From positions 32,760,002-32,824,001 of the forward strand of contig OY987242.1 in assembly GCA_963920765.1 (NCBI GenBank): a stretch of DNA of 64,000 nucleotides, in the 5' to 3' direction. The stretch is from Ulota crispa (taxonomy: Eukaryota; Streptophyta; Bryopsida; Orthotrichales; Orthotrichaceae). The notes below the pieces were generated by a model. The model worked only from the letters and a program-made list of their open reading frames with translations. It had not been told where the DNA came from and did no database searches. Below are positions 2,802 through 61,086 of this stretch, piece after piece. Each line of letters begins with the position of its first letter. The stretch's first letter is position 1. A program made the position numbers and the translations under genes.

Positions 2802-3786
2802 TTAACTCCTCGTCGCCTAAGGGGACCAAAAGTGTCATCTCAAGGTCTAGTACTCCGTTTGGAAATATTGTAACTTTTGCATATATTGTTTGAATCCAAT
2901 AAAATTTGTTGGCAAAGTTGCGCACTCTAGTCTAGTTTCTATGATACAATTTTCAAATCAATATAATACATGTTGAGTTTGTGAAAGCCATTCAAGGTTC
3001 ACAAGGTCAATTTCAGTTCCTTGCATTGCATTGTGATGGCTGCAACTTTGGAGGTGTATATCTATTTCATCAAATATTGTTTTCAATGAAACATGTTGGG
3101 TTTTGTTCCCCTCAAAGTCTAGTAATTGTGGTAGAATTTTCATGTCAATCCAAGTTCCTTTAAATGTTTGAGAGCAACTCAAAGTTCAAAATCCACACAT
3201 TTTTGCATTACAGTGAACTTTGGTGGCTTACAACTTCTTCATACAAAGTCTTTTTTCAATACGTTTTATTGCAAAAGTTGCATATACTATTCTAGTTATT
3301 GCTATTAAAATTTAATATCAATCCAAGAATTTATGAGTGAATGAGAAGCATGTTAGTAGAGGGAGGGATAGCCATTGATGTGATTTTTGGATACTTTTTT
3401 CAATGTTTTTGGACATTTCAAAACAATTTTGCAAACACAATGAGTCTATTAAATGATATTTTCTTTCACCAATGTGTTTGTATATTGGTTTTGAATCATT
3501 TTGCATTTTCAATATTTCTCGTTTAAGTAGGTATAAATATCAAATTTCACCCCAAACTTGTTTTTAGGAAAATTTCAACATCTTTTTACAACACTAAAAC
3601 ATTATAATCTTCCAATCTATTTGGTCAAATGACCCCAAATTTGATCCACATCATCTATAACATACGCATTACAAAATTGTACAATTGAAATTGAAGTTCT
3701 TACACTTTACTTACATTTAAACTTACAGCACTTGAAAAGCAATGATGTGTTTTGGCCTCTTTGGACCTTAGGCGATGAGGGGTTAA
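2802..3786. mobile_element. TTAA-flanked non-autonomous element (piggyBac-like), old copy
   Basis: The left end reads TTAACTCCTCGTCGCCTAAG and the right end CTTAGGCGATGAGGGGTTAA. These form an inverted repeat inside TTAA on both sides. The inner sequence near the right end, with 'cattataatcttccaatct', resembles the elements at 10446 and 48508, so this is a diverged member of that subfamily. No transposase is encoded. The right TTAA lies 75 bp beyond the stop codon of the methyltransferase gene, so the element may supply 3' UTR or polyadenylation sequence. Confidence 0.75.
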
Positions 3787-3849
3787 CTCTACTCTCGCTG
3801 CTTATCCAGCCCCTTCCAGTACTGTCGTCTCCAACCGCCATGTCGAGCA

Positions 3850-4824
3850 TCAACCCTAACCCTAACTTTGTCTTCTAAAATTCTTCCTACACTCCACTCC
3901 ACAAAACTCACAAACTCGAAGACAGATCGGAATCTGTAACCCGGCGTCGAACAATCCAAACCCTTCTTCTTCTTCGTCCAGCACCGCTATCTTAATATCT
4001 TTCAACACACCCTTCAACAACTTCAACTCAACCATCTTCTTCTTTCCAAGCTGCATCTCCGTCTTCTCCAAACGAGACACTTCATCCGCCAAAACCTGCA
4101 CAACCGAGGTCTCCTCACACACTCGCCCTTTTTTACCCAACTTCGCAATTCTTAACAAAATCGCACCATAATCTTCTTCTGTTGTTGTTGTCATTTTCGC
4201 ATGGCACATCACACTTGGTAAAGATGAAGAGAGCGTAGAATCACATGCGATTGTCTTGCTCTTCCTTGCGCTTTCAAATAGCTGCTGTAGATCTGCCACA
4301 TCGGATAACCTTGCTTTTGCCAGTAAGAGTGGAACAGATTTAGGGTTTGAGCGATTTTGCGGTTCAGGCTCGTTTTGTAAATTTAGGGATGGTTTAGGGT
4401 TTAGGGTTTGGCTGAAGATGTAGGTGGCTGCTTGGCGCAGTGGAAACCGTTTGCCTGCTTCTTTGGCAGCTCCACGGCGAGTGCGGTATCCCGGAAAGGT
4501 TTCAAATACGAAAGGAGCGCACTTGATAAGCCGGAGGCCTGCTGTTTGAGCATGTTCTTCGAGCTTCCACTCATCGTAAGCTTCGCCTTGCTTGTGAGAA
4601 ACGTGCACTTCTCCTCCTGGTAACAACATGCCGCTTGCATTTGCAAAGAATGCCCGTATTAGCTCCTTGTGTTTCCTGTCAACAATTTCAACCCAAACAA
4701 TTTTAGTCCAAGTTTTTACTCTGTGCAAACCCTAATTAGTGTTGGGAAGAAACTCTATATTCAAAAGCTGAAAGGCTTGGATTCTTGAATCCAGAGTATT
4801 TTAGGGTTTCGGGTTTAGGGTTAA
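3850..4824. repeat. Three short telomere-type (AAACCCT/TTTAGGG) clusters
   Basis: Interstitial plant telomere-like motifs occur at 3851-3866 (over the methyltransferase stop codon), at 4381-4410 (in its last exon, coding SQTLNPKPSL just after the conserved domain) and at 4801-4824 (in intron 2). Each holds only two to three imperfect units. Such telo-box motifs are common near plant housekeeping genes; a cluster inside coding sequence is less usual. Confidence 0.6.
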
Positions 4825-6919
4825 CTATCCAGTAAACATTGCAGTGTGGATTACACTCAACCCGCTCTAACACGGGGCTACAGAGTTGGGAGTTATAATG
4901 AAGAGATTCAGCTTTAAGTTTTCAAATAGGGTCCCTACTTTAAAGGACAAACTACAAATGATGCCAAAACTCATGGACTTCTGGGTTCATTTTGAGAATA
5001 GCTTTCGTGTTGCCTTCTATGACATAACTTCTAGGTTTCTAAACTTCACGAGTAAGGGGCGTCGATGTTACGTGTGATAACCAACAACGTTGTCTTCCCC
5101 TTCCACTTCCAAGACAGACCCAATCCCGACCATGTACCTAATGTCGCCCACATGTATAGGTATGTCATAGATACCTTATCTTTTGTATGACACACAAAAT
5201 AAGGTATCTATGATGTACTTAGATTTCAGTATTCAATTGACCACCGTGGGTACATATGAGCAACATTAGGTACATGGTCGGGATTGGGTCAACCTACTTT
5301 AATGATAATTCAACAATATCTCATAATATATCCTATGAGTATGCCTTGCATGCATTTTGCAGCATGTCTCTCTTAATTTTTTTGTTACTATTCATCCTCT
5401 GTTTTCCTCTCCCTCCCCCTTGAATTTCAAATTGTGGAAGACGGACAAACACCTAATGATACTCAGTACTTTATAATAGAGACTCTAGACCAAAATTCCA
5501 ATGACTTTTCACCCTCCTCTTTGGTGCCTTTTCCTTGCCCTTCCCTTGACAAACACTTGAGGCTTCATATGTATCTAATTGAATGGAACCCTTCGTAACC
5601 TACTGTTCTATCAGGTTCAATACAAGCACCACTGTTTTGTTTCCTAGTAGAAGTGCATTTTGGAGTTTGTTCAGGTAATTTTGCTAAGGAGCATAGGTTA
5701 GTGTACAACTGTCGTCCTCTCAACCAATTTTTTTTTTGAAATTATTGTATGGATTAGTCCTCTTAGTATTATAATTTATATTGTAACTCTTGCACAACTT
5801 GATATGCGGGGAGATATAAAACTTACTGTGTCATTGTTGTTGCATCTTCAGCGTTGCTTGCTGGAAAGCCAGCATGGGAAAAGTTGAAGATAATGCGATC
5901 AAAACACGTCTGCTGTAATTTGCAAAGCGGAGTTGCATGTTTGGTGAGCATGTGGCAGGCATCAAACTCATGAAACACATGCGCACCGCGCTTCACAAGG
6001 TTGGCTATATTGGTGAAGGCATCTTTTCCATACTTCTGCTGCAAATCACCTGTGAATCCAAATTTTCCCCCACATATTCAATTAGGTTAGGATTGGCACA
6101 ATTGTATTTATATATGGTTTGAGCCATGTGCAGAAGTATGAGAGGTGCTATAAAAGCTTACAAGTTTACAAACGAAGTTGTAGATTTTGGAGCAGGCTAC
6201 GGTTGGATTTAGGTACACCTTGTCAAATCAATATACTCTCGAACAAACTAACCAAAGGTCTCTTGCCATTTTCAACATCACTAAATAGTGCATTTAGGTT
6301 GCCACATACTAATTAGTCGACATTTTACACTAAATAAATATCTATTGATACTACACTAAATAGTGTATTTAGGCTGTTTTAATGTATCAATAAGTATTTG
6401 TGTAGTGTATAGTGACAAGAAATTAGTGTAGGGCAACTTGAATGCACTATTTAATGTACAATAATTGTCATTAATAATTATCACAATAAATAAATTTTAA
6501 AAACAATGATTGGGCAACAACAATAATATTGTGGAAAAACAAACTTAACATGTAAAGCATGTAAAATCTTAGCATCCAAAGAGTTGCATGCATTTCCAAG
6601 TGACTAGGCAATGAGTTATGAGATAACTTTTTAGGGTAAGGCAACCTAAATACAATAATTAGTGTAAATTTTATGCATAAGAGGAGGTCCACAATGCAAG
6701 AATTAAAGACAAATGAAACTTACTTGGTGAGTCTAATGACGTGGCAACAATGCGATCGGCTGTGCCAAATGCCGTGGCAAGGCATGAAGAAAAGGAAAAA
6801 TCTCCCTCCCCCACTAACAATAGCTGCTGTGCGTTTGAATAATGTGATACCCATTTTGAGTTTACTTTTGTTTTGTTTGATGCAATTTGGATTGCATTTT
6901 CTCCAATTTCTAGCTCCAT
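3862..6919 (-). CDS. 25S rRNA uridine-N3 methyltransferase, BMT5-like (DUF2431) domain protein
   Basis: Three exons give 410 residues: 6724-6919, 5827-6049 and 3862-4675 (join on the minus strand, ATG at 6919, stop TAG at 3864-3862). Donors GTAAGT at 6723 and 5826 and acceptors CAG at 6050 and 4676 keep the frame. Residues 33-44 (LLLVGEGDFSFS) are the SAM-binding signature of the BMT5-like fold. FDRIIFNFSHAGF (115-127), GGEVHVSHK (160-168) and FPGYRTRRG (200-208) are the other conserved blocks. The family methylates N3 of a uridine in large-subunit rRNA, in the nucleolus in yeast; plant members are often annotated as FDXACB1-like. The domain ends near residue 227. A tail of about 180 residues, with a Lys/Glu-rich helical part and a final Cys cluster (CEFCGVEC), is not recognised. 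The usual FPHAGF has Ser in place of Pro. Introns 1 and 2 contain MITEs. The start is the first ATG before the motif; exon structure is inferred from splice signals and family similarity. Confidence 0.88.
5109..5302. mobile_element. Short foldback MITE in methyltransferase intron 2 (AGGTAG/CACCCA family)
   Basis: Inverted ends contain 'cccaatcccgaccatgtacc' at 5122-5141 and its complement at 5266-5285, with an inner palindrome around the 'ataaggtatctatgat' arms. The outer ends AAGACAG and CTACTTTA match the TA-flanked family seen at 8927, 39577 and 41402. It lies wholly inside the intron, in an element about 190 bp long. Confidence 0.7.
6277..6666. mobile_element. CACTAAATAGTG-family MITE, composite or nested, in methyltransferase intron 1
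   Basis: It begins CACTAAATAGTGCATTTAGG and ends near 'cctaaatac...ttagtgta'. Internal partial termini at 6352-6375 and 6441-6458 suggest a second copy inserted in or beside the first. The central 'aagtgactaggcaatgagt' segment is shared with the intact copies at 9797, 46846 and 51611. Those copies are flanked by TA, as in Tc1/mariner-like MITEs. Confidence 0.65.
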
Positions 6920-8027: not shown

Positions 8028-8389
8028 ATGTCATTAATCTGTCAATACAATGGGTGAGAAAGACTTGTATATAGATAATTAGTAAGAATAATAGTGAACC
8101 AATAAAAAAAATTATGCTTTAGATCTCTTAGAGTAACAACAAAGACAATGAAAACTTTGCAAGGATAAATGAAAATTTGAAAGCATACTATAAATGAGCA
8201 AGAGCTTGAGAGCCTTCCAAAATAGATGAAAAACTTTGAAAGAGCCTGGACCAGTGGAGATGCTTTTGGAGAAATGCAAACAAAACCCTTGTGCTTTAAC
8301 AAAATAAGAGGAGCAAGGCTTTACGGAGGAATGCAGGATTGGAAAGTTGATGCACTTGGAAATGCTGTACACACAATACTTAATCCCTA

Positions 8390-8929
8390 AACGCCCAAGG
8401 GGGTAAGGGTGAAACATAGATGTATTATAAAATAATACTTATGTAACTTTGATGAAGTTTGTTTCAAAAAAGAAAAACAAGAATCATGATGTTTAATAAT
8501 TACCAATATAGTTAAAAATTCAAAAAAAGTTTTGGATATTTATTTAATGAATTTAGAAGCATTTATCATTTGATATTCACCAAAAATACAAATTTTATTC
8601 ATAGATTTTAAAATTTGGCATGATTGGTTAAATACATACATTCTATTGTAAACTTCAAAAATGCAATCTTTTCAAAGGAAAGAACATCATTATTTTCCCA
8701 AAATAGTAAATTTAATAACACTAGCAAATATTGAAGTGTTTGTTATTGAAAAATTCTCCTTAATGCAATTTAACTTGAATTGACATGGTTCAAGTTGGGT
8801 TGGAAAGTAGACTTGATTTCCTATTTAAGAATTTTTTAAATTTTTTCCAAGAGTTTTTTTCATCTCAGGCAACCCGCAAAAAACAAGCAACAAACCAAAA
8901 AAATGATTGATTGAGCACTTAGGGGTTAA
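8390..8929. mobile_element. TTAA-flanked non-autonomous element (piggyBac-like)
   Basis: The left end is TTAATCCCTAAACGCCCAAG and the right end GAGCACTTAGGGGTTAA. About 0.5 kb of AT-rich DNA lies between, with no ORF. The left terminus carries one extra T before CCC. The right TTAA also forms the edge of the next MITE at 8927. Confidence 0.65.
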
Positions 8930-10102: not shown

Positions 10103-10445
10103 GATAATTACAACTTTGAACTGTAGCTATGCCTTCACATAGCTGTATGAGGGATTAAGGTGGAGTACAAAATGGTCCCTCCGTTTATCCCAATTCCCCT
10201 AGTATGGTGTTTGATTGTGATTTTAGACCTTCTACCTGGGAACGATGATCTCAAGATGATTGGCACCCGGAGTGCCAACAAGAATCTGCATTCCTTTTCC
10301 AAGACTGGTGAGGCAGCGAGCTTCTCAAGAACGTTGGGAAACGCTGTTAACAATTGGTTAAGGCGAACGTTGAGACCAACAGCGTATCATTGCATGAATT
10401 CGGACTCATGTGCAGTTTCCAAGCTATTGAACCTGTAGCCAATAT

Positions 10446-11099
10446 TTAACCCCTAAATGCCTAAGGCACCCAATTTGGGGGTCGACAATACTTTGAAGTT
10501 CAATAAACCCTAACTGAGTTTATATTTGCTATTTGTAGTAGTGTATGTTTTGAATTACTCTCTTTGAATTCTAGTTTTAGCATCAAATATTTAATTTTGA
10601 AAATGATTGATTATGATATTTCTATTCAAGATTTTGTGCAAGTGTCTTGACTTTTTGTAGTGTTGAGAGCTCTTTGAAATGAGTTTCAAATACACTATAT
10701 CTTGAAGAAAAATTTACATTAGAAGTTCACTTTACAAAATTGTAGAATAAATTTTGAAAAACCATAAAGTGATTGGAGTTAGGCATGTTATGTCCTTTTA
10801 TCTTGTATTTTTTTGGTTACCAATTTTCTAGATTCAACATGTGAAAAGAGGATTGAAAGACCCCAAGTCATTTTTGCTGTTTTAACACCCTCATGATCAA
10901 GCATTATAATCTTTCAATCCATAAGTGATATTGTTGAGTTTTCTTTTCCTATGTGATCTCTAACATACCTAGTTCGAATTTGTATGGTTGTAGTTTTAAA
11001 AGATCTCATACAGCTCATTAAAAAGCTGGCTTCAGCTTTTTGTTCAATATAGAGCAAATTTCTAGAAGCTCATAAAAGCTTCAGGCATTTAGGGGTTAA
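10446..11099. mobile_element. TTAA-flanked non-autonomous element (piggyBac-like), subfamily D
   Basis: It is bounded by TTAA on both sides. The left end is CCCCTAAATGCCTAAGGC and the right end GCATTTAGGGG. A subterminal palindrome CCCAATTTGGGGG follows the left terminus. The same interior occurs at 48508-49426 and, inverted, at 57360-57999. This copy gives the empty-site sequence (10928-10946) for the MITE nested in the 48508 copy. Confidence 0.85.
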
Positions 11100-15735: not shown

Positions 15736-16495
15736 TTAACCCTTGAGCACCCCACAGCTGGGATCTTGTCGCTCAGGATTTCAATGGGCGCTTTGGGGGG
15801 CTGGATCTAATTTTTTGATTTTGTACTAAACTAAAATTATCAAGGTATTCAAGTGGTCCTCGGAAGTGAAGTAATGGCAAGTCAAGTCAAGTGTTGTACA
15901 AGTAGCTAGGGAGTCATGATTGCATGGAACACCATAAGCAATGAGGTGACAAGGAGCATCTTACATGCTGCAATCGGTCAATATCACTTGCAAACTTCCT
16001 TGCAATGTATTTTGTGGTAGCAAGGAATTCACTGGCAAGGGTTCACACATGTTCTAAACCCTTTTCAAGGTAATTCTCACAGACTCTGAGGACATTGTTT
16101 TCAGAGCGATTGCAGTTTGAAGCCCTCAAACTTAGCATTCAAAGAAGTACAATCTTTGATAATTTGCAAGTGTGTGCATTCACATCTAATCTTGCTACCC
16201 ACGAAATTTGAGATGAATCAAGGGCTTCTAGAATTTTGTCAAAATCAAAAAATAGCAAATACATGCCAAAAAGTGAGATCTGCCATCACGTGTTGTTTAA
16301 TCAAATGTTATAATCTCTCATCTCCCACAGTCAATTGTTCCCAAAATTTGCAAGCCCTTTTTTGAATAGGTGTTCCAATATTTTCAATGGTCACTTTTTG
16401 TGAATCATCCAATTGACTCAGATATGATGTATCAAAGTTGTAAGTCTCTGGAAACCCTCATTTTGGTGAAAAAGCTCTGGGCGCTCAGGGGTTAA
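15736..16495. mobile_element. TTAA-flanked non-autonomous element, CCCTTGAGCACCC subtype
   Basis: The left end is TTAACCCTTGAGCACCCC and the right end GGGCGCTCAGGGGTTAA. A subterminal 'ccccacagctggga' follows. The same subtype of terminus occurs at 30193-30779 and 46373-46612. No coding sequence is recognised. Confidence 0.8.
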
Positions 16496-24030: not shown

Positions 24031-24249
24031 TTAACCCTTGAAGGGCCCTTCGGCTCCGGAGCTATGGTACCAAATATGGTTGCAACCAATTTCAGAAATT
24101 TGAATCAATTGGAAATTAAGTTTTACAACCGTACAAATTGAAGGGTTTTATGATGGTGGGTGCATAAAAAACTTTGAAAAGCCCTTAGAGCAGCTCAAAT
24201 ACGTTTGTACATACAGCTGCAAAGGTCTTTTGGGCTGTTTAGGGATTAA
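24031..24249. mobile_element. Short TTAA-flanked element (piggyBac-like)
   Basis: The left end is TTAACCCTTGAAGGGCCCTT and the right end CTGTTTAGGGATTAA. It is only 0.2 kb. A strong subterminal palindrome (gaagggcccttc, then ctccggag) follows the left end. The right TTAA is shared with the next element, the first in a 5.3-kb chain. Confidence 0.65.
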
Positions 24250-25558
24250 GAACCACGGGACCATATTTTGGTCTCACGGAGTGGTTTGGCTTATAGATTG
24301 AAACCACTCAATAATTTGGAGTTTGGTCTTGACGAACACATGTGATCCCAAGATTTTTGCATCCAACCAAAAAAATAACAACGGAATCGGGTCATCAGAG
24401 GAAAAATGAGCTTAAATGAAGGCCCATGTGGGAAGTGGTTGGAGGGGTCAAAAGCATTTAAATGTAATGTCCTTTTTCAAATAAAAAGAGACTAATCCCC
24501 TATAACCACTTACAAGTACTTCATGAGAGTCATTTCTTTTTACAATATCATATGCTTTTTGTTTGATGAGTGTCCTTGTTTGATTGGGAATTCTAGTCGT
24601 AGTTTATTCTTGTGTCCCACTAAAGGTCCTTGCATTTATCATTGTCAAGTTATAATATTGTTTTCCATCATCAATCCTTTTGTTATGTACCATGGTACAT
24701 TTGAGTACTTCACATAAGGTAGAGACCTTTGTGTAGGTACCTTACCTATGCTTCACCTACCTCAATAAATAGGGTGGTTTGTCAAGGTGTAGGGGCCTTC
24801 TCTTGAGCTCATTTTTTCTCTAATCTACAAATAATGGTGTTTGTACATCATGGCATCAAAACATGTATCCAAATTTAGTCAAAGATGAATCAAAGCAACA
24901 ACACAATACATCAAACATCCAACAAGAATGTCACATTTCAATTGTGGTGTCTTAAAAAAATTCAAATTGCTCAAGAAATAAGCTTGTATTGTTTCTCAAT
25001 GTGGTAGTAACACAATTATAGTATTTGAAGATCTATTGAAATTGTGCTATCATTTCATTTTTAAAATTTGCCATCCCACATTTAAGGCCAATTCTAGATT
25101 GTTTTCACCGATTGGATTTTCCATAGCATTTATCAAATTTCTTGTAGAATTGTTTTAGGGTAGCAAATAAAGTGGGTTTTTGACCCTTTTTGTCCACTTA
25201 GCTACACCTTGTGATTGCTATTTTTATACATTTTGTGTGAAACTAATCTTATTGAAAAGGTGGAAAACCTGCTTTCTAGAAATATAAGGCTCTTCTCAAG
25301 CAAAGCTTGTATGAAGCAATAAGAACCACACAAGCATGAAATACTAGAGATTTTCCACCTACATCTCATTCAATCATTATAATATTTCACCTCCAACTAT
25401 AGATCTAGTTGAAATTTTGATAGTTCATAGGAAATAAGGTGTTATTTCCATTTGTGAGGTTGGATTATGCAAAGTAGGTCCACATTTGATTCAACTACAT
25501 ATTCCAATTTACTACCCCAATTTATTGTGGATTTTGTGAGAATGTGTGGTGTCTTTAG
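24246..25558. mobile_element. TTAA-flanked element, subfamily A
   Basis: Left TTAAGAACCACGGGACCATA; right side ends at TTAG shared with the next element. It aligns along most of its length with 28439-29352 ('accatattttg', 'aatttggagtttggtcttga', 'ggtagcaaataaagtgggttttt', 'tgtccacttagctac') and partly with 38140-39429. No intact ORF is seen. Confidence 0.7.
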
Positions 25559-26475
25559 CCCCTATAGGACCAGGCAAAGTTTTCACCAAAAATTCTTCAA
25601 AACTGCCATTTTTAGAGCATCAACCAAATTTGAAAACAAAAGCATTTTTATGCATATATGACCACAGGATCTTTTAAAAGAATTGTTTAGAAGATATGGA
25701 AATAAATTCACAGTATTCTGTCATGTGGATTGGAAGTTAGAATGGTTTGCATATTCAAAAACGTCTTGCAAAAAATTGGGCAGCTACCCTTCAGAAGGTG
25801 AAATTCCTAAGGAAAAAAAGCCATGTGGGTGGTGCTTCTCTAAATTCCTTATTCCACCTAGGTAAAGTACTTGTCAAAAAAGTTTCAAATCATTTGGAGT
25901 TGTATAACATATAGAAAAAAATTAGTAAGTAAAAAGAAGTAAAGAATGATTCAAAACACTAAATTGTTAAGAATTTAATTATGGAAATGAAAAATGCCAA
26001 TCCCAATGGTCATAATATCCCCATAAACAATATTCATCCTTTGGTTATGTTCTTTTTCCAAAACATTGAAAATTGAGTAAAATAAAGGACTTCAAAGTGT
26101 ATTTTGGAGTAGAGAATCCATAATTGCCCGCAAACAAAAAATCCTCATAACTTTCATCTTGTTGATCCAAACAAAATGATTAGAAGCTTCCTACATTCAC
26201 ATAAATCTCCTTAACCAATTTAGAATTTATGTTTTTGAAAAAAGTGATTTTTAAAAATCTTCCTAGGGTGCCCGCCGAACGTAAAAAACAACATATTAGG
26301 CCTTAACTTTTTACTCATAATTCCAAATGTCATGAAATTTAGTGTGTATTCAAGATAAACCTTGTCCCCACATACAATTAAAATTTAAGCCTAAAATATG
26401 AAAAGCTCCAATCACAAGTACTTGCCCAAAATCGCCATGTTTCTAAAAAAGGGGGTCTGGTCCTTTAGGGGTTAA
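25555..26475. mobile_element. TTAA-flanked element, subfamily C, near-identical to an inverted copy at 50506-51470
   Basis: It begins TTAGCCCCTATAGGACCAGG and ends GGTCTGGTCCTTTAGGGGTTAA. The whole 0.9-kb unit recurs in reverse orientation at 50506-51470 with few changes. Translating 25683-25865 and its counterpart gives 60-residue peptides differing at one position. That peptide is unrecognised and probably not a gene, but it shows how close the copies are. Confidence 0.85.
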
Positions 26476-27402
26476 CCCCTAAATGCCCAAGCGTGTTTTT
26501 CTTGTTTCCAAAAGGTAGTTTTGAAGTTTTGAATTGTCCTTGTAAAATCATTATTAAACATCAAAAAAAATTTGTAACCATTGAATCTTGAACTTCAAGG
26601 TTTCTAGATGGCACTACCCAATTAGAATCCAAAATGGCCTCGCGGATATTAAGATATTTGTGATTGAATGATAATGAGTATGGAATTTTTTGCTTTTTTT
26701 GGAGCTACCCAAAACTCCTAATGCAAATTGGCAACTTTTGGATACAACATTGGGAGACAACCACTTAGGATGCTTTAGTGTTTATTGCTATTACTTCAAA
26801 ACCAATGGTCCCTCTTCCAAATCCACAATCCCAATTTCACAAATGAGCCTGCAACACAAATGTCAAAATGCAACCATCTAATACAAAGAAATTTTCAACT
26901 TCAATTATTGACCAAAAATCATTATGAGTGAATGAAAATTCAACAGTGAAAGGATCCTAATTTCTATAACAAAGACATTCCAAGTGAAATTAGTCCAAAA
27001 GCACTTTTAGATTTTGTTAGATGTCAAAATTTCAATGAAAAGGCCCTTATTGCCCAAGGGAGTGCCCAAGGGAAATCTTCACCTTTTGCTCAACTTGGTG
27101 CCCGTCTTTTCAATGTGGCAACTTCTCACAAGCTCTGTGACACTATTCACAACACTTTTCATGACACTATTCATGACACTATTCACAACAAAAAATGTAT
27201 GCTTGTAGTTAACCTTCAACCAAAAACAAATGAAATAAAATATGGAGGAAGTTGAATTTGAATGGCAAAACTAACTTCAACGAGCAACTTTTTCACAAAA
27301 GAAAACATCAAAACAATAAAATCTATAACTTCAACAGAATTTCAAAGTTTCCTGAAATTTTTTGGACACCAGAATCCAGTGCCTTGGGCATTGAGGGGTT
27401 AA
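26472..27402. mobile_element. TTAA-flanked element, CCCCTAAATGCCC subtype
   Basis: The left end is TTAACCCCTAAATGCCCAAG and the right end CCTTGGGCATTGAGGGGTTAA. It shares its left TTAA with the previous element. A small 12-bp minisatellite (atgacactattc units, 27138-27186) lies inside. No coding sequence is recognised. Confidence 0.8.
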
Positions 27403-27725: not shown

Positions 27726-28442
27726 TTAACCCCTAAAGGACCAAATCCCCTTTTGGGGGACAAATGGGATTTCGGGCATGTACCTATGGCTAGACTACAT
27801 TGTGTAAGTTTTTGAAACTTTTATGGAAGATGGGGATTCAAAAATCTACCCGGACATCTAATTTTTCCTTCATTATGACATTTATTGAAGAAGTGAAAAA
27901 TGAATTTCTAGGAAAAGGTCTAGATTGGGCAGCCCAATTATTATTTTTAAATTGCATTAAAAATAAACAAAAATATGAAATAGGTTCTTCAAACTTATGT
28001 ATAGGTGGGGAGCTTTGAATCATTCAATTTTCATTAATGAGATGAAAGTTATGAGAAGTTTTAGTTTGCGGGTAGGTGCGATTTTTAGAGAAACCATACC
28101 TACCCACAAACAAAAACTTCTCATAATGTTCATCTCATCAATGAAAATTGAATGATTCAAAGCTCCCCACCTATATATAAGTTTGAAGAACCTATTTCAT
28201 ATTTTTGTTTATTTTTAATGCAATTTAAAAATAATAATTGGGCTACCCGATCTAGACCTTTTCCTAGAAATTCATTTTTCACTTCTTCAATAAATGTCAT
28301 AATGAAGAAAAAATTAGATGCCCAGGTAGATCTTTGAATTCCCCATCTTCCATAAAAGTTTCAAAAACTTACACAATGTAGTTTAGCCATAGGTACATGC
28401 CCAAAATCCCATTTGTCCCCCAAGGGGACAGTTGGTCCTTAA
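27726..28442. mobile_element. TTAA-flanked foldback element, subfamily B, about 345-bp arms
   Basis: The left arm 27730-28077 is complementary to the right arm 28098-28438 almost base for base, around a 20-bp loop. The left end is TTAACCCCTAAAGGACCAA; the right arm stops at TTGGTCC directly before TTAA, so it lacks the last CCCCTAAA. Both arms are open for nearly the same 61-residue peptide read outward and inward, a mirror effect rather than two genes. A second full foldback is at 58324-59049. Confidence 0.92.
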
Positions 28443-29352
28443 CCTTTTAAGGACCACGCGACCATATTTTGATTGCTGGGAGTGGTTTTTGGCCTGTAGG
28501 TTGAAATCGCTCAATAATTTGGAATTTGGTCTTGAAATACGCATGTGATCACAAGAATTTTGCATCCATCTAAAAAATAACAATGCAATCAGGTATGTGA
28601 GTTGACAAATAATGATGTTTATACGGCATGGCTTCAAAATACATATCCATATTTTGTCAAAGATGGATCAAAGCAACAACACAATACATCAAACATCCAA
28701 GAAGAATGTCAAATTTCAATTGCACAATTCTAAAAAAATTCAAATTGCTTCAGAAATATGCTTGTATTGTTTCATATACGGTAGTAGTATAATCGTAGTA
28801 TTTGAAGATCTATTGAAACATTGTTGTCATTTTTACTTTAAAATATGTCTTCCAACATTTAAGGCCAATTCTTGATTGTTTTCACCAATTGGAATTTCCA
28901 AAATAATTATCAAATTTCTTGTAAAACCATTTTAGGGTAGCAAAGAAAGTGGGTTTTTTTACCCTTTTTGTTCACTTAGCTACAAATTGTGATTGCTATT
29001 TTTTTCTATTTTGTGTGAAACTATTCTTGTTGGAAAGGTGGGAAACCTTGCTTTTTAGAAATGTAAGGCTCTTTTCAATCAAATCCTACATGAAGCGTTA
29101 ACATTCAAAACCATACAAGTATGGAACCCTAGAGATTTTTTGCACATGGCTCACTCAATCATTATAATGTTTCACCTCCAATGGTAGATCTAGCTAAAAT
29201 TTTGGTGCTTTAGAGTGAACAAGGTGTACTTCCCATTCATACATTTGGATTACTGAAAATGGGTCCACATTTGAGTTAATTGCACATCCAAGCTTACAGC
29301 CCCTGTTTTTAATAAAATTTTGTGAAAATGGGTGTGGTCCTTAAAGGGTTAA
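28439..29352. mobile_element. TTAA-flanked element, subfamily A
   Basis: The left end is TTAACCTTTTAAGGACCACG and the right end GGTCCTTAAAGGGTTAA (a second TTAA follows at once). It is the most complete subfamily A copy. It shares its left TTAA with the foldback at 27726. No intact ORF is seen. Confidence 0.75.
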
Positions 29353-29636
29353 GGAGTTAACAAGACTAGTATCTTCTTTGTTCACTTGTTGCATCCATAC
29401 TTACATAGAAATGATCAACAAAATTACTGGATAGGAAGGAATGTGCTAGGTGGGAATATGCTTCACCAACATCGGTAAACTCCTCAAATTTTCATCAACT
29501 TCACCAGAAGACAAAAAATCTACCCAACTCTGTCCTAAGCATTAACCCTTAAATGTCCATAGGGCATAGTATATACTGACGTGTAATTATCATTTGCTAC
29601 CAGTAAGAAATTTTAATTTGGGATCTCAAGTAGCTC

Positions 29637-30136
29637 ACTAGCCCTTAAGCGCCGGGGCCCATAGTCATGGCTTGCCCTGTATTGTACAGCTACAGTACTC
29701 AAGCTATGCTCAACCTATAGTATTGCTTCAAAAAGTGGAAAAAGTCAATAGTGCATGCTGCCCACATGAAATTTGTAAGAAGGGCATGAGGAGATTTATC
29801 AACCATGGTTGTGAATGTTCTCACAAATTTCAGTTTTGAAAACATGTGGACTTTCAATCAATCCAATTTTGGCACTCCGTGGTGAAGAACCTTGCAATGA
29901 CCAATTTTGGAAAAAAATGAATAACAAAAGCTTTTTTACCAACCCCCAAATTGTTTTTTTAGCACTAAAAGAAATAATCATCATGTTCGACCTTTAGAGG
30001 CTAGAATCAAATTGATATATTCTCCAACTTCTTTGTTAGTCTCAACTATAGTAGAGGTGTGGATCCATTCCAAATACAAGAAAAATACCCCATATTATAA
30101 TGGTCAGAGCGGCATGCTCGAACGTTTAGGGCTTAA
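29637..30136. mobile_element. TTAA-type element, diverged, related to 52423-52813
   Basis: It starts 'ctagcccttaagcgccgggg' and ends 'cgtttagggcttaa'. The interior matches 52423-52813 in order ('ctatgct', 'agtcaa(t/c)a(g/a)t(g/a)catg', 'gcaagaagggca'). The left flank is not TTAA. A lone left terminus, TTAACCCTTAAATGTCCATA at 29542, may be a separate truncated copy. Confidence 0.5.
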
Positions 30137-30192: not shown

Positions 30193-30779
30193 TTAACCCC
30201 TGAGCACCCGATCAACATTATACTGTCGATGGGCCCACAAACTTTATCTCACTTTTTCTCTCAATCCGTACAATGAAAACAATCATGGTTGGTCCCCATT
30301 AGCAAAGAAAGTACACTAATAATGGTATTTAGTATTGGCAACACTAATTACAAACCCCAACACTAACTGTCAACAATCCTCTTCATGTTACCGACACTAA
30401 ATGTCAACGTATACACTATTTGTTAACTACAATATTTTTGGGAATATAAGTTTTTTTACAAGTTTATATTTAGTGTTAGAAATTGGTTCATTTTTATTAC
30501 AACAAAAAAATTAAATTAATTTTATGAGTTAATATTTAGACAATTAGGCAACTCTAAATACAAACTAGTTGAAATTTAAAGCAAGTGAAGTGAAAGTGCA
30601 AGTACCAATATTGGTAATATAGCACTATTGGTAATATAACACTAAATACCATTATTAGTGTAGTCCTTTTTCAAATCCTGCGATCACTTTTTCTGGATGT
30701 AATTTTTCAAGTAGTGGGGGCCATTAAACCCCCCATTTTCTCCTAAATCCTAAAATAACTATGGGCGCTCAGGGGTTAA
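30193..30779. mobile_element. TTAA-flanked element with a nested TA-flanked MITE
   Basis: The left end is TTAACCCCTGAGCACCCG and the right end GGGCGCTCAGGGGTTAA. The MITE at 30312-30662 lies within it, so it inserted later. The remaining shell is about 235 bp, close in size to the unnested relative at 46373-46612 with the same termini. Confidence 0.82.
30312..30662. mobile_element. TA-flanked MITE with CACTAATAATGGTATTTAG ends
   Basis: CACTAATAATGGTATTTAGT at the left is repeated in inverted order as ACTAAATACCATTATTAGTG at the right, with TA on both sides. The start CACTA also fits the CACTA superfamily, but the flanking dinucleotide favours a Tc1/mariner-like mode. A weaker relative may lie at 47902-48180. 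Confidence 0.82.
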
Positions 30780-42609: not shown

Positions 42610-43527
42610 TTAACCCCTAAAGGCCCAAGGAACCCACTTTGGGCTTTATGAGAACTTGGGCAAGCTCTATTGATTTCATAATTTGGAAATTTTTCATGAA
42701 ACTTTTAGGATGGATGCTACTCATCATAATCTACATGTGAAGCTTCATTTCATGTCATTCAAATAAGTATTGCAACAGTTATAAGCTTTTTTCAATTTCA
42801 ATGTCAAACCAGGCAAGCAAATATTATATTCTAATTTTTTTTAAATTTTTTTATAGAATTGTATAGATTGATACCTACTCAAAAAAAATTGAATCACTCA
42901 ATCCCAAATAATGAGGTAAGAGTTAAAAGGAGTTTTCTTTTGTAGGCAATGAAGGTAGGAAGAGGGTAGAAAAAACATATAAAGTTATCTTTTACTCTCA
43001 ATTTTGAAAAATTACAAATGAAAATGAAAAATAAAGTTACTAATTGTTTGTTAGAGCATTCTCACCATTGGGATTCACAATTTTCAAATTCTTCCAAAAC
43101 TTATTAGCATATTAGTTATATCTTTCATTTATCAATACCTTTCAGTTTACAATTTTTGTAAAAATGAATCCAAAATTTTTTTGGTTGAATTTTTTTATAT
43201 ATGCTTTCAACCCATTTTCCAACATATTGCCAAAATTGTACAAGAAATACAACATATGTGTTTTTTTCTAAACAGTTTGAAAATCAAAATTTCACCTTTT
43301 GAAAAAACTAGAAAAGCCTACATTTTGAAATTTAGGCACATTGATCTTGTAATTAATGGGAATATTCATTCTAAAATTTTGGGATAATGTACTTGTGCAA
43401 GCCAACCAAAGGATCCTACGGTTGAATTTGTTAGAAAATAAATTTCAATGAAGATTTTGACCATGGTTTGGGACTAGTATTTTGAAGCAGTTTTGGACCT
43501 CTCAACACAAAAAAATTTAGGGGTTAA
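42610..43527. mobile_element. TTAA-flanked element, CCCCTAAAGGCCC subtype
   Basis: The left end is TTAACCCCTAAAGGCCCAAG, with the subterminal palindrome 'gcccaaggaacccactttgggc'. The right end is AAATTTAGGGGTTAA. No intact ORF is seen. Confidence 0.78.
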
Positions 43528-46372: not shown

Positions 46373-46612
46373 TTAACCCTTGAGTGCCCAAAGCTGAAAC
46401 AAAAAAAGCTTGACATGTGTGCAATCATAGTGCCCTTGTGAATTGAAAAATACGATTCAGAAAATCCGATTGTATAAATTATTAATGGAAAGCGTCTCCA
46501 TCATACTAAACCCAATTAGAAGAAGTTTCACCGTACTTCCAATGGAATTATATTGATCAAAATTGAGCTGACCCATCTTTTTGAGAGACATTCTCGGGTG
46601 CTCAGGGGTTAA
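46373..46612. mobile_element. Short TTAA-flanked element, CCCTTGAGTGCCC subtype
   Basis: The left end is TTAACCCTTGAGTGCCC and the right end GGGTGCTCAGGGGTTAA. At 240 bp it is close to the size of the shell at 30193-30779 without its nested MITE. Confidence 0.82.
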
Positions 46613-48507: not shown

Positions 48508-49426
48508 TTAACTCCCCACCGCCCAAGGGGCCCAAATCGGGCCCCTCTAAATTTTATTCAGGATACACAACTTTTCTACAAGATTTTTTTTAATGATGAT
48601 TATTATTTTTAAACTCTTATTGAAGTCTCGTTTGAGTATCAAGAGTCTGATTTTGAAAATGAAATAAAGTGATTTTTCTATTCAACATTTTGTGCAAGGG
48701 TGTTCATTGCAAATCTTCACTTTTTAGTATTGAAGACTCTTGGAAATGAGCCTCAAGTATACTAGAATTTGGAGAAAAAATCACATTAAATATTCAATTT
48801 AAAAAATTGTAGAGTAGATTTTGAGAAGCTGTAAATTAATTGGATTATGCATGTTATACTTTACACACTCCTATATTTTTGGTACCCACAGTTTTAGGTT
48901 TGAGATGCAAAAAGAGGATTGAAAGGCTTCAAATCACTTTCTCAGTTTTAACACCCCCATGATCAAACATTATAATCTTTCAATCCATAAATGATATTGT
49001 TGTGATTAATGTCATATTCGTTAAATTTGGAAATTTGTTTGAATTTGGGACTTTTGCAAGTTTAAGGTGATCACCTTAAACCGAGCTCTAAGTTTAAGCA
49101 TCATTTTTTTGGGTACACATGTCCTCACTTGAGAGGAGGAATTTGCAAGGGAAAAAATCTTAGTGGCTCAGAATAAATATGATACCTTCAAATGTGGTTT
49201 AAGGTAACTTTTTGGATTTAAGGTGAAGTTCAAATTGGGAACCACGTTTTCCCAATTTAACAAATATGGCGTTGTTTTCTTTTCCTATGTGATCTATAAC
49301 ATGTCTACTTTGAATTTGTGAGGTTGCAATTTAGAGAAATTTGATAAGATTGATCAAGCCGGCATTTTGTTCACTTTCAAGCAAATTTCAAGATACTCCA
49401 AGCTACCATGGGCGGTGAGGGGTTAA
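48508..49426. mobile_element. TTAA-flanked element, subfamily D, carrying a nested MITE
   Basis: The left end is TTAACTCCCCACCGCCCAAG and the right end GGGCGGTGAGGGGTTAA. The interior follows 10446-11099, but the MITE at 49008-49273 interrupts it between 'gatattgttg' and 'gttttcttttcctatgtgat'. It shares its right TTAA with the next element. Confidence 0.85.
49008..49273. mobile_element. MITE, CATATT...GGGAAAA family, nested
   Basis: It starts AATGTCATATTCGTTAAATT and ends CCAATTTAACAAATATGGCG. The markers 'gtttaaggtgatcacctta' and 'aatcttagtggctcag' match the copies at 13885 and 19954. Confidence 0.87.
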
Positions 49427-50509
49427 CCCCTAAAGGACCAAGCCCTTTTTTCTATGAAAAAGACTGAAAACTGCCACTTTTGGGGGAATGAGTAGAAAGG
49501 TAGATTTTTTATCTTCTGGAAATTCAACCATAAGAACTTGCCCTAGATTATGGGAGGTACTTGTGGGAAAAAAATCAGCTCGTTCTAGAAGTAGAGGAGT
49601 GAAATAATGACATTTGAAGTCTACAAGGAAACCATGGTCAAACCTACAAAAAGTTGACAAAGATTGTGCCCTAATCTACGATATACTCTAGGTTAGGTCA
49701 CAATCTTTGTCAACCATTTGTAGATTCGACCATGATTTCCTTGTAGTGAGTGAATAGAAAAGTTTTTTGCCCAATTGCCCAAAAAATTTAGAAGCCTTTG
49801 TCCGCTCTTGTATCAAAAAATTGCTCTTCGCAAAGTTGAGGTTTATATTGTTCATGTAGAAGACCAAGTTAGGCAAGTGTGGGAGAATTTTCAAATGAAT
49901 TGGAGGTGTGGATCATACTTTGTAAAATCTTGCAATGCCATAAGGTCATGATATTTGCATATACACTAGGCAAAATTGGAGGATTCTTGTATGATTGAGA
50001 AATTTGAATTACTTTGATCAAAATAGTGAAAACCAAGGAATTTTAATCTATTACAATTTGGAAGAAAAAGAAGTCAAGAAACAAATACACAAAGAGCTCA
50101 AAGAAGTAAAGCACCAAATTTTACAAGAGGCAAAAACAATGGAGGTTTGGGAGTCCCATACCTACCCGCAAACAAAAACTTCTCAATCATCAATCAAAAT
50201 TGAATGATTCCAACTATTTTCAAAGCTTCCCACATGTGTATAAATTGAATGAATCAAATTTTGATTCTATTTTTAATGCAAATTATAAAAAAAAATTGGG
50301 TTGCCCAATCTCCCCCATTTTTCAAAAATTCATGCATAACTTCTTTAATAAATGTTGGAATGAAGAAAACATTAGATATTCTCATAGATATTTTTGAATT
50401 CCCCACTTTCCATAAAAGTTTCAAAAAAACACACAAAGTAGTTTAGCAATAGGTACATGTCCAAAATCCTAGATGTCCCCTGAGAGACAATTGAGCATTT
50501 AGGGGTTAA
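49423..50509. mobile_element. TTAA-flanked element, decayed foldback related to subfamily B
   Basis: The left end is TTAACCCCTAAAGGACCAAG and the right end GAGCATTTAGGGGTTAA. An internal palindrome at 49618-49752 (arms with 'ctacaaggaaaccatggtc') forms a hairpin. The right part from 'tacccgcaaacaaaaacttc' (50164) follows the right arm of the foldbacks at 27726 and 58324. Both TTAA ends are shared with neighbours. Confidence 0.75.
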
Positions 50510-51470
50510 CCCCTAAAGGACCAGACCCCCTTTTTTAGAAACATGGCGATTTTGGGCAAGTACTTGTGATTGGAGCTTTTCATATTTTAGGCTTAAATTT
50601 TAATTGTATGTGGAGACAAGGTTTATCTTGAATATACACTAAATTTCATGACATTTGGAATTATGAGTAAAAAGTTAAGGCCTAATATGTTGTTTTTTAC
50701 GTTCGGCGGGCACCCTAGGAAGATTTTTAAAAATCACTTTTTTCAAAAACATAAATTCTAAATTGGTTAAGGAGATTTATGTGAATGTAGGAAGCTTCTA
50801 ATCATTTTGTTTGGATCAACAAGATGAAAGTTATGAGGATTTTTTGTTTGCGGGCAATTATGGATTCTCTACTCCAAAATACACTTTGAAGTCCTTTATT
50901 TTACTCAATTTTCAATGTTTTGGAAAAAGAACATAACCAAAGGATGAATATTGTTTATGGGAATATTATGACCATTGGGATTGGCATTTTTCATTTCCAT
51001 GATTAAATTCTTAACAATTTAGTGTTTTGAATCATTCTTTACTTCTTTTTACTTACTAATTTTTTTCTATATGTTATACAACTCCAAATGATTTGAAACT
51101 TTTTTGACAAGTACTTTACCTAGGTGGAATAAGGAATTTAGAGAAGCACCACCCACATGGCTTTTTTTCCTTAGGAATTTCACCTTCTGAAGGGTAGCTG
51201 CCCAATTTTTTGCAAGACGTTTTTGAATATGCAAACCATTCTAACTTCCAATCCACATGACGAAAAACTGTGAATTTATTTCCGTATCTTCTAAACAATT
51301 CTTTTAAAAGATCCTGTGGTCATATATGCATAAATTTTTGTTTTTTTTTGTTTTTGTTTTTTTAAGATTTAACTGATGCTCTTATATAAAACTAAAAAAA
51401 AGAAAAAGAAAAAAGAAGGCAGTTTTGAAGAATTTTTGGTGAAAACTTTGCTTGGCCCTTTAGGGGTTGA
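50506..51470. mobile_element. TTAA-flanked element, subfamily C, inverted near-identical copy of 25555-26475
   Basis: The left end is TTAACCCCTAAAGGACCAGA and the right end TTGGCCCTTTAGGGG followed by TTGA. It is the reverse complement of 25555-26475 with few substitutions, except for an A/T-rich expansion at about 51335-51410. Confidence 0.85.
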
Positions 51471-56764: not shown

Positions 56765-57333
56765 TTAACCTCTAAACGATCAAGCACATTTTTTTCAAAA
56801 AACACTCAAAACTGTCATTTCTAGTGATTTGATCCTAAGAACAATCTTTTTCCAACAAAATTAAATCTAATTTAGGATCTTGTAGAGGCCTCATTCAAGA
56901 ACATGCCATGAAAATTTTGTAAAGTTTGACCATACGGATTGAGAGATATAATCATGTAAAGGTAGTGCATAAAGTTTTTTTTAGTCCTGCCCAAAATTTT
57001 CAGGTGCCTTTGATCACATGTGGTGAACAATTTTTGCACCATAGGTACTGAAGAGATTTGTCTAATATGCTCTAAATCATGTTAGGCATATCTCTCCAAG
57101 TCTTTGTGATCAAACAAGACATGGAACACACCCTCCATGGCCATGCATTGCAAACATTTGCTTGAAATTCACACTACATTGAGGTTATTTGCCAAGCAAG
57201 TTTTACTAAAGATGTATTAAAGAAAATAAAATCCAAGCAATAGATTGGAAGAGTTTAGCTTCATTGACAATCTCTAAAAAGAAAATTGGAAAAGAAACCA
57301 AATCTCTAGTAGCAATTGCAATTCAAAGGTTAA
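56765..57333. mobile_element. Possible diverged TTAA-flanked element
   Basis: The left end is TTAACCTCTAAACGATCAAG; the right end, AAAGGTTAA, is weak. The terminus wording fits the family, but the right end is uncertain. Confidence 0.4.
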
Positions 57334-57359
57334 TGTATTTATCAAATACAATAATGTAT

Positions 57360-57999
57360 TTATCCCCTATATGCCCAAGGCCTATTTTGAGCTTTTAGGA
57401 ATTTTCTCTAAATTGAACAAAAAGCCAACATTTTGATAAGTTGCAGCAATTTTTCTTAAATTGTAACCGTACAAATTCAAACTAGATATGTTAAACATCA
57501 CATATGAAAAGAAAACATAACAATTCCAATTATGAATCGAAAGATTATAATGTTTGATCAAGAGGGTGTTAAAACTGCAAAAATGACTTCAAGTCTTTCA
57601 ATCCTCTTTTCACATGTCAAATATAAAATGTTGGTCACTAAAAAAATATGAGGTTAAAGGCATAACATACATGACTCCAATTCATTTACTCTTTTACAAT
57701 TTTTTAAAATGAATTTCTAGTGTGGATTTTTCTCCAAGATCTAGTGTATTTGAGGCTCATTTTCATGAGCTCTCAACACTAAAAAAGTCAAGATTGCAAT
57801 GGGCACCCTTGCACAAAATCTTGAATAGAATATTCATAATCAATAATTTTCAAAATTGAGTTTTTTGATGCTAGAACTAGACTTCAAAAAGAATAAATCT
57901 AAAATAATAAATACTAAAATTAGCAATTTAGTTAGATTTTATTGAACTTCAAAATATTGTCAGCACCAACATGTGGTGCCTTGGGCATTTAGGGGTTAT
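57360..57999. mobile_element. TTAT-flanked member of the TTAA family, subfamily D, inverted
   Basis: The left end is TTATCCCCTATATGCCCAAG and the right end CTTGGGCATTTAGGGG followed by TTAT. Read in reverse it follows 10446-11099 ('tattgaacttcaaaatattgtc', 'ttataatgtttgatca', 'tgcacaaaatcttgaat'). The matching TTAT on both sides indicates a genuine 4-bp duplication that is not TTAA. Confidence 0.8.
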
Positions 58000-58300
58000 T
58001 TAGTACACTATTGCTTTGGATAGATTCCAATGAAGGGACATCCCTTCATTGGTTCCTCTTGGGAGAAGTCAACAAAAAAATGACATGCCCAAGCTGCCCC
58101 TCCAACTAAAATTCATATGTTTACCCTAATAACTTTTGAACCGTAAATTGGAATTCAGTAAAAACTATTCTTCCACATAACTCTTGTATAACTCTACCTT
58201 CGGAGAAAACTTATAGAATTTGGTCATAAATTGTAATAGCGTGACCTTGCCTAGAATCTCCTTTGTCTCCCATAGGGAGAAATGGTCCTTTAGGGGTTAA
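58000..58300. mobile_element. Right-end fragment of a TTAA element
   Basis: It ends 'gtctcccatagggagaaatggtcctttaggggttaa', a subfamily B-type right end with the subterminal palindrome. No left end can be placed. Confidence 0.45.
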
Positions 58301-58323: not shown

Positions 58324-59049
58324 TCAACCCCTAAAGGCCCATTGTCCCTTTGAGGGACAAATGGAATTTTGGGCATGTACCTATGGCTAAACTACTTTGC
58401 GTGATTTTTTGAAACTCTTATTAAAGGTGAGGAATTCAAAAATCTATGTGGGAATGTAATGTTTTCTTCATTCCGACATTCATTGAAGAAGTTAAAAATG
58501 AATAACTGAAAAACAAGGGACTCTGGGCAGCCCAAAAACTTCTTTAAAAGTTGCATTTTTTTCAAATAAAAACTTGAAATAGGTTCTTTAGACTAATATA
58601 GACATGGGGAGCTTTGAATCATTCAATTTTGATAGATGAGATGAAAGTTATGAGAAGTTTTGGTTTGCGGGTAGGTGTGGTTTCTCTCAAAATCACACCT
58701 ACCCGCAAACCAAAACTTCTCATAACTTTCATCTCATCTATCAAAATTGAATGATTCAAAGCTCCCCATGTCTATATTAGTCTAAAGAACCTATTTCAAG
58801 TTTTTATTTGAAAAAAATGCAACTTTTAAAGAAGTTTTTGGGCTGCCCAGAGTCCCTTGTTTTTCAGTTATTCATTTTTAACTTCTTCAATGAATGTCGG
58901 AATGAAGAAAACATTACATTCCCACATAGATTTTTGAATTCCTCACCTTTAATAAGAGTTTCAAAAAATCACGCAAAGTAGTTTAGCCATAGGTACATGC
59001 CCAAAATTCCATTTGTCCCTCAAAGGGACAATGGGCCTTTAGGGGTTAA
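58324..59049. mobile_element. Foldback element, subfamily B, 352-bp near-perfect arms
   Basis: The left arm 58328-58679 and right arm 58694-59045 are equal in length and almost fully complementary around a 14-bp loop (58680-58693). The ends are CCCCTAAAGGCCCATTGTCC and its complement. Flanks are TCAA and TTAA. If transcribed it would fold into one long hairpin RNA. Confidence 0.95.
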
Positions 59050-59050
59050 G

Positions 59051-59633: not shown

Positions 59634-59636
59634 ATT

Positions 59637-60179
59637 GAAGATCATCTCAAAGATGGTCTCCATGGTTGAGTAGAATATGACTCTTGGTTTTGGTCCATTA
59701 ACCCTTCATAATTTGGCACTAGACCATAACAAACCTTCTTTGTAAGTACATTTTTGCATGACATGAATTTTTTGAGTACTTTTAGGGGTATTGGAATCAA
59801 ACTTTTGTATTGGTATTGAAATCAAACACGTATCGTTATGTACTTGTATTTTTGGGTTTATAACTTCTACTTCACAAAGAAAGACGATGGTTTTTTGAAA
59901 GCAATAAAAATGTTTTTAAATGTGGTTTTAACTATTGTATCAGAACCAAACTAACACCAAAAGATGTGACAAGTTGAGTTTGATTCCAAGTTTGCAAAGG
60001 CCAAATTAGTGGGATAGCACACTTTTTGAAAGGGAACGTAACCCTTTTTTTTTAGCATACACATTTTTTCTTAACTTAATTTTAGTCACTTAAAATAAAA
60101 ATATTACACAAGATAACAAGGGCTGCCAAAAAAGGTTTGAACTTTAGAATAACTCAATTTTGCGATAAAAATAAATGAC
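59637..60179. other. AT-rich intergenic stretch, nothing assigned
   Basis: I see no recognisable gene or repeat family member. Confidence 0.35.
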
Positions 60180-61086
60180 TTTACCTCCTAAAGGACAACA
60201 TCCTTTATTTTGTCAAAGGACACTCAAAACTGCAAAACAGTAAAAAAGTTTCATAATTTTTCTTTTGTGTATCTAACTGCAGGATCTTGTATTAGACTAG
60301 TATAATAATGTTTGTAAATTTTTCAAATGTTTTGACCACATAGATTGCAAGATATTTGCATTTAAAGTATGAACAACAAACTTTTTTGCACCTTGCATGA
60401 TCAGATTATTTGACTTTGAACCTTTTTAACTAAATTTTTTTGCACCACAAAGTTTGGAGGTTTATTTTCTTAAGGTGGAAAATTGAGTTGAGAACCTTTG
60501 GAAAAAAAATCAAAACAAAAATACTTAATTTTCATTCTTAAAATAAACATTAGGTAGAAGAAGGTATGAGATTGAACGAAAACTTAAATTGTTAATAACA
60601 TTGCAACAAAATTGAAACGCAATAATCCCAATGACGAGATTTTTTCTAGCAAGCAAGATTCACCCTTTCCAACAATTTTTTTTGAAAAAATGTTAAATGT
60701 GCATTCAAAAATGAAGTTTATAAGTTATTTTTTCAAAAAGATGCTTGAATTGCCCAAAAAACAAGATTGTCCATAATTTTTTCATAACTAATTCAAATGT
60801 AAGGAATCAAAGCTTCAAATGTAGACAAAAATATAATCTACAAGAAAAAAAAAAATCTGATTTTTGTAAAATAAAAATTGATGTTTGGTCTCCCCAAATT
60901 TGTGCTTATTTGGGCATAACTTTTGCTCCCGAGCATAGATTGGAATAAAGATGATATTCTCCAAAAGCTAATGTGTTTTTCTATCTTCAAAAAAAGTTTC
61001 AAAAATGAGGACTAAAATTGAGGCCGTAGGTACATGCCCAAAATCTCATTTGTCTACTGAAAGGACAATGGATCTTTATGAGTTCA
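60180..61086. mobile_element. Diverged relative of the subfamily B elements
   Basis: The left end is 'tttacctcctaaaggacaac'. The right part ('gtaggtacatgcccaaaatctcatttgtctactgaaaggacaatgg') matches the right arm end of 27726 and 58324. The arms no longer pair well. Flanks have drifted from TTAA. Confidence 0.5.

Follow-up and report, generated by a model that had tools for sequence, protein, structure and literature searches.

In animals, piggyBac-derived miniature inverted-repeat transposable elements (MITEs) are short, TTAA-flanked copies that keep the piggyBac ends and lack a transposase. According to a passage of PMC8086355, the family itself is typified by three conserved aspartates, the PF13843 domain, and a Cys-rich domain. 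PiggyBac is placed among plant DNA-transposon superfamilies in a general classification (PMC10794571), and the relevant passages of PMC10813416, PMC8086355, and PMC10794571 mention plant piggyBac-like elements in general terms only. For the fern Ceratopteris richardii, a table row in PMC6890710 files 1,230 entries (122,417 bp, 0.00% of the assembly) under piggyBac. In PMC10619864, the match shown was the word 'piggybacking'. Judged by titles and the beginnings of abstracts, no description of a piggyBac expansion in a land plant was found among the open-licence papers listed. Here, we analysed a 64-kb stretch of a plant genome (the window; C1:32760002-32824001), which belongs to a 41.4-Mb contig of a 274.8-Mb assembly in 157 contigs. 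With a probability of about 95%, the window holds several non-autonomous families of the piggyBac superfamily, which arose from transposase-bearing elements of the same nuclear genome.

Termini and elements of the window

A terminus profile of 16 positions, trained on loci outside the window only and applied to every TTAA within it, recovered 29 TTAA-anchored termini at a score of at least 10, while each of 20 first-order shuffles and the reversed window gave none. At a score of at least 6, there were 35 termini, against a mean of 0.15 in the 20 shuffles and two in the reversed window. The commonest terminus is TTAA/CCCCTAAAGGACCAAG, with CCCCTAAATGCC, CCCCTGAGCGCC, CCCTTGAGCACC, and CCCCTCATCGCC as variants; the terminal inverted repeats are short and begin with CCC as in piggyBac, apart from a few ends that read CTCC, CCTT, TCCC, or GCCC. 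TTAA flanks 15 elements on both sides (11,604 bp, 18.1% of the window), and four more with a decayed end bring the total to 19 elements (about 15.5 kb, 24.2%). Unpaired termini lie at 48223, 52423, 55107 (minus strand), and 55517. The elements are as follows, with the strand where one was assigned:

2802..3786: non-autonomous piggyBac element, 985 bp, TTAA on both sides, termini CTCCTCGTCGCC / CCCCTCATCGCC
8380..8929: element, 550 bp, TTAA on both sides
10446..11099: element, 654 bp, termini CCCCTAAATGCC, TTAA on both sides
15736..16495: element, 760 bp, termini CCCTTGAGCACC / CCCCTGAGCGCC
24031..24249: element, 219 bp; its short family also has members in L008 and L019
24246..25555 (ends approximate): decayed relative of 28439-29352, left terminus truncated and right end decayed, split by an unrelated repeat of about 430 bp at about 24393-24827
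25555..26475, minus strand: element, right TTAA common with 26472-27402, left TTAA decayed to TTAG
26472..27402: element, 931 bp
27726..28442: fold-back element, TTAA on both sides, right terminus without its last 8 nt, arms matching one terminal region of the dominant family of about 930 bp
28439..29352: element, 914 bp, termini CCTTTTAAGGACCA / CCCTTTAAGGACCA
29542..30136: element, 595 bp, termini CCCTTAAATGTCC / GCCCTAAACG
30193..30779: element, 587 bp, termini CCCCTGAGCACC / CCCCTGAGCGCC
42610..43527: element, 918 bp, most similar to L010:775-1696 (90.8% over the best aligned piece)
46373..46612: element, 240 bp
48508..49426: element, 919 bp, termini CTCCCCACCGCC / CCCCTCACCGCC, one TTAA common with 49423-50509
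49423..50509: element of the dominant family, 1087 bp
50506..51470, plus strand: element, one TTAA common with 49423-50509, right TTAA decayed to TTGA
56765..58300: element, 1536 bp
58324..59049: nearly perfect fold-back with arms of 361 nt (99% complementary), the left TTAA now TCAA through decay

The original prediction had put the elements flanked by TTAA on either side at about two dozen, which is too high even when decayed elements are included; its CCC-starting inverted termini at TTAA are borne out by the profile, and its estimate of roughly a quarter of the 64 kb agrees with the share covered by the 19 elements. The proposed minimum of four interior subfamilies was exceeded in a local sample of 264 kb, where 61 nearest-neighbour end pairs, some of them composite, fell into eight clusters of at least two members (27, 7, 4, 3, 3, 3, 3, and 2) and nine singletons. 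This sample is biased toward TTAA, because 18 of the 20 stretches added beyond the window were chosen around TTAA-containing matches. The lengths of the pairs concentrate at about 900-966 bp and 195-257 bp, and the best aligned pieces of nearest relatives are mostly 75-92% alike; the elements at 25555-26475 and 50506-51470 are 98% identical over 869 nt.

Each of the two fold-backs is built from one terminal region of the dominant family, repeated in inverted orientation. A 255-nt part of this region recurs at positions 1-255 of L025y, which neighbours the L025 element described below, and at one terminus each of L011:863-1787, L017:87-1052, and L021:3833-4762. Single TTAAs are common to two elements at 26472, 49423, 50506, and 28439 (at 28439, the left partner is the one without the last 8 nt of its terminus), and those at 49423 and 50506 join three successive elements into a run from 48508 to 51470. 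The sequence TTTAGGGGTTAACCCCTAAA, which represents two perfect ends on one TTAA, occurs at 335 places genome-wide, including window 26464-26483 and 50498-50517, and not at all in the reversed control; about 120 (from the TTAA density of the window) to 128 (from that of the sample) would be expected if the left and right sides of a TTAA were used independently. We regard this 2.6-2.8-fold excess as a lead, which may merely mirror uneven element density.

The same termini are abundant throughout the genome. TTAACCCCTAAAGG was found 15,411 times (7,719 + 7,692; reversed control 1 + 0), and the exact 12-mer TTAACCCCTAAA, consisting of TTAA and CCCCTAAA, 30,972 times (15,477 + 15,495; reversed control 41 + 36 = 77). 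TTAA stands directly before 7,555 of 8,876 exact CCCCTAAAGGACCA termini (85%), which is the unbiased figure; in the mostly TTAA-selected 264-kb sample, a search for four terminal motifs that did not demand TTAA gave 70 matches, 66 of them with TTAA directly before. At two ends per element, the 30,972 exact ends correspond to at least about 15,000 elements, and because the window has 13 exact 12-mers and 35 termini at a score of at least 6, the real total is probably higher by a factor of two to three. Together they possibly occupy about a tenth of the genome, a share that is extrapolated and not measured. The 13 exact 12-mers of the window compare with a genome mean of 7.2 per 64 kb (about 1.8 times), and there are none in the 10-kb flanks on either side.

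To compare occupied with unoccupied sites, the flanks of insertions into other repeats were joined with one TTAA and compared with the 264-kb sample; trivial matches (shared ends, or the element's own flank) were excluded from the count. Paralogous empty sites with a single TTAA and a gap-free junction were obtained for five independent insertions:

L016:447-1404: unoccupied paralogues in L020, L007, and two window copies; the target position in the empty copies of this insertion and of that in L014 reads TTGG or GCAA
L021:1577-2517: unoccupied paralogue 97.5% alike, TTAA intact
L013:3239-4198: unoccupied paralogues 94% and 92% alike, TTAA intact in an empty homologue
L014:3179-3768: unoccupied in two window copies, 85-86% alike
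L012:2821-3755: unoccupied paralogues about 78-80% alike, TTAA intact in an empty homologue

Insertion at TTAA with duplication of TTAA is thus seen in paralogous sites, which took the place of the related genomes originally proposed for this comparison, and nothing in them contradicts the prediction. Because duplication of TA alone, within a strictly required TTAA, would leave identical sites, these sites speak against duplications of 3, 8, or 9 bp and not against TA alone.

Transposase copies and their ties to the short elements

A profile search of the genome for PF13843 (DDE_Tnp_1_7) yielded at least 120 stretches on eleven contigs (C1 to C11), with a best E value of 1.3e-73; 116 of 528 candidates were scored, so the counts are a lower bound, and all listed stretches exceed the curated cut-off. 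Stops interrupt 110 of the 120 listed stretches, and 10 are stop-free. Among the candidates scored, none of the 120 stretches lies in the window, in line with the predicted lack of a transposase there. The domain was absent from 14 control genomes, which are probably microbial and therefore weakly informative.

A stop-free frame of 389 amino acids at locus L035 matches PF13843 with 4.1e-67, piggyBat with 2.6e-24, and Trichoplusia ni piggyBac with 7.6e-20. A D faces each of piggyBac D268, D346, and D447, as known from solved transposase structures (PDB 6x67), so the catalytic triad is present in this copy, whose element ends lie outside the fetched sequence. Cys-rich tails behind the domain were noticed in several translations by eye only. 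In the 20 transposase domains of loci L025-L044, the internal stops comprise 38 TAG, 25 TGA, and 11 TAA; this bias fits C-to-T decay of CAG, TGG, and CGA codons, and is possibly a mark of DNA methylation.

When the 61 short elements were compared with the 4-kb transposase loci by blastn, matches were confined to the outer flanks of L025, L027, L041, and L042. These loci supply the transposase-bearing relatives with the same termini for which a whole-assembly search had been suggested: one copy has a PF13843 transposase between both ends (L025), and L041, L042, and L027 have it next to a 3' end. L025 with its upstream sequence forms a complete element of 5,027 bp (C3:13130262-13135288), with TTAA on both sides and the ends CCCCTCATCGCCAAAGG and CCCTTCATTGCCAATCC. 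A second copy, L034 on C10, is 90.5% identical to it, and the similarity stops 1 nt past the right TTAA. At its left end, L025 agrees over 25 nt with the window element starting at 2802 in 21 positions and with that starting at 48508 in 19, where the best score in each of 20 shuffled windows was 12-15; the other ends of these elements (2802-3786 and 48508-49426) reach 18 and 15.

Extension of the three 3' ends revealed longer shared terminal sequence. L041 (C5) and L042 (C9) end in TTTAGGGG/TTAA, 1.70 and 1.75 kb past the domain, past which no further element sequence follows. In the dominant cluster of 27, 15 members have at least 200 nt in common with these two 3' termini (69-82% identity over stretches of up to 547 nt), 20 have at least some sequence in common with them, and most alignments reach the TTAA. 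In the window, element 49423-50509 matches the 3' terminal region of L041 at nt 1-144 (79%) and nt 327-556 (82%), in blocks of 144 and 230 nt, and that of L042 at nt 1-125 (70%) and nt 327-647 (76%), in blocks of 125 and 321 nt. L027 (C7) has its 3' end at a TTAA with CCCCTAAAGGCCCAAGCC, 1.94 kb past the domain, and its last 592 nt, up to the TTAA, match window 56765-57356 (72%), L017:8135-8724 (72%), and L011:8395-8988 (74%). Its right flank matches the interior of window element 26472-27402 from the intact TTAA at 26649 on; judged from this flank, a relative of that family seems to have been the target of the L027 insertion. Four window elements are thus linked to a transposase copy, 49423-50509 and 56765-58300 through sequence, and 2802-3786 and 48508-49426 through the termini of the complete copy.

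Several repeats accompany these loci. The repeat of about 430 bp, whose inverted ends are close to AAAAATGAGCTTAA, lies inside a piggyBac-type element of the window (24393-24827), and also upstream of two piggyBac transposases (L041 415-853, L042 3100-3524). The stretch (window 24394-24827 and the two transposase loci) was considered as a common 5' region and rejected, being an unrelated repeat inside another element. A palindromic repeat of about 400 bp is frequent in the sample (L008 5851-6262, L010 3609-4027, L014 8458-8877, L028, L038, and L048) and stands near three transposase loci; L048 is the sequence upstream of L041. Between the transposase and the 3' end of L027 stands a long tandem array of a 4-nt unit, whose translation repeats YIHT.

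Origin of the short copies and alternative explanations

The short copies would have arisen from transposase-bearing piggyBac elements by internal deletion or rearrangement. If these elements behave as piggyBac does, the transposase would act in trans on their CCC ends and excise gene-less substrates, and cut-and-paste joining to new TTAA sites would regenerate TTAA on either side. As each insertion leaves TTAA on both sides, elements could stack on one TTAA, as between 48508 and 51470. Since most listed transposase stretches and many ends are decayed, the amplification appears mainly old, and the pair that is 98% identical suggests that some activity was recent. On sequence grounds, piggyBac identity can be taken as established for the families linked to transposase copies; for the rest it is suggested by their ends and the TTAA.

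Several points weigh against this explanation. Four transposase loci were extended, and both ends were found for L025 only, whose transposase domain carries two stops and which is tied to the window elements by its termini, without interior similarity; for L041, L042, and L027, the sequence stops short of the 5' end. No recognised terminus was found within 1.5 kb on either side at 17 of the 20 fetched transposase loci, as would be expected for elements of about 5 kb, although this is no proof. Seven of the 27 dominant-cluster members have no match to L041 or L042, and for the remaining window elements, the link to piggyBac consists only of TTAA, the type of terminus, or resemblance to other short copies. 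Furthermore, 1,321 of the 8,876 exact CCCCTAAAGGACCA termini genome-wide lack the preceding TTAA, which we put down to decay as an assumption.

The short elements might instead have been moved by another TTAA-duplicating superfamily, with the piggyBac transposases as unrelated residents. Kolobok and Sola3 also use TTAA, so TTAA alone is not diagnostic of piggyBac, and several window families are linked to transposase copies through termini only. The original prediction had named an autonomous partner from another superfamily as a refutation; this was followed up in part, in that the copies sharing termini carry PF13843, and no search was made for transposases of other superfamilies. Three piggyBac-transposase loci on three chromosomes have the same terminus and terminal sequence as short elements, and a fourth is complete, with ends of the same kind as two window elements. 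This alternative is already contradicted for the linked families, and we consider it very unlikely overall. Even less credit is due to a Tc1/mariner-type (Stowaway) origin, which we give next to no chance: a TA duplication with ACCCC...GGGGT ends and a chance preference for TTAA would read TTA|ACCCC...GGGGT|TAA, and its empty site would be identical to that of a TTAA duplication. The TTAA before 7,555 of 8,876 exact termini speaks against such a chance preference, and the presence of a piggyBac transposase next to, or enclosed by, the same ends rejects it for the linked families.

The transposase copies could also represent a contaminant or a single recent invasion that never mobilised the short copies. 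They are diverged and mostly broken, and L025/L034 is the only pair above 80% among the listed pairs with at least 400 nt aligned. Against this stand the spread of the transposase stretches over contigs C1 to C11, the right flank of L027 that matches the interior of a window family, and contig C1 itself, which carries both plant genes and elements. Genes for a lipid-transfer protein and a nucleotide-sugar epimerase (a split gene) lie in the window, a xyloglucan xylosyltransferase gene lies in the 10 kb to its left, and light-harvesting PF00504 has 56 stretches genome-wide; the light-harvesting, lipid-transfer, and xyloglucan xylosyltransferase genes show that the host genome is that of a plant. 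A contaminant or recent invasion is extremely improbable. The piggyBac interpretation of the window is upheld by PF13843 copies that share the termini; in three of them, the terminal sequence in common with short elements extends over hundreds of nucleotides.

A wider possibility, which we hold as tentative and somewhat doubtful, is that piggyBac, perhaps gained horizontally, became a dominant DNA transposon of a land-plant lineage. Its several families would then comprise more than 15,000 short elements and might fill about a tenth of the genome, and new insertions would prefer a TTAA beside existing ends and so build chains.

The window also holds other repeats. One family (6279-6649, 9795-10104, 46844-47152, and 51609-51918) has CACTAAATAGTGCATTTAGGTTGCC-like inverted ends in the copies read, and by its termini it is perhaps of CACTA type. 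A unit of about 153-162 bp forms tandem pairs at 14875-15380 and 47344-47886, about 32.5 kb apart, which are 78-91% alike in their best registers. A minisatellite at 36040-36540 advances in steps of 54 and 96 bp and retains open frames in both orientations.

Comparison with described piggyBac systems

piggyBac has been studied and used mainly in animals, and a plant with thousands of insertions and many transposase copies offers a natural case, in which piggyBac can be followed under plant methylation and small-RNA control and its route into plants can be tested. Where repeat annotation has been trained on Stowaway, Tourist, hAT, and Mutator, plant TTAA elements of this kind may be classified wrongly.

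The elements described here resemble Trichoplusia ni piggyBac and other PF13843 elements in the TTAA target, the short CCC-starting termini, and the DDD triad, and differ from them in the plant host. The complete element measures 5,027 bp, compared with 2,472 bp given for piggyBac in a passage of PMC10813416; the animal survey in the same source presents CCCTT as the most conserved motif, whereas the termini here read CCCCTAAAGGACC or CCCCTCATCGCC. The Ceratopteris richardii row likewise files repeats of a land plant under piggyBac, in a passage that shows neither element structure nor transposase. The short copies with piggyBac ends, TTAA flanks, and no transposase are like the animal piggyBac MITEs, from which they differ by several unrelated interiors, two size classes, fold-back forms, and an estimated number of at least about 15,000 elements. 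The kind of element is already known, and the surprise is its plant host and its scale.

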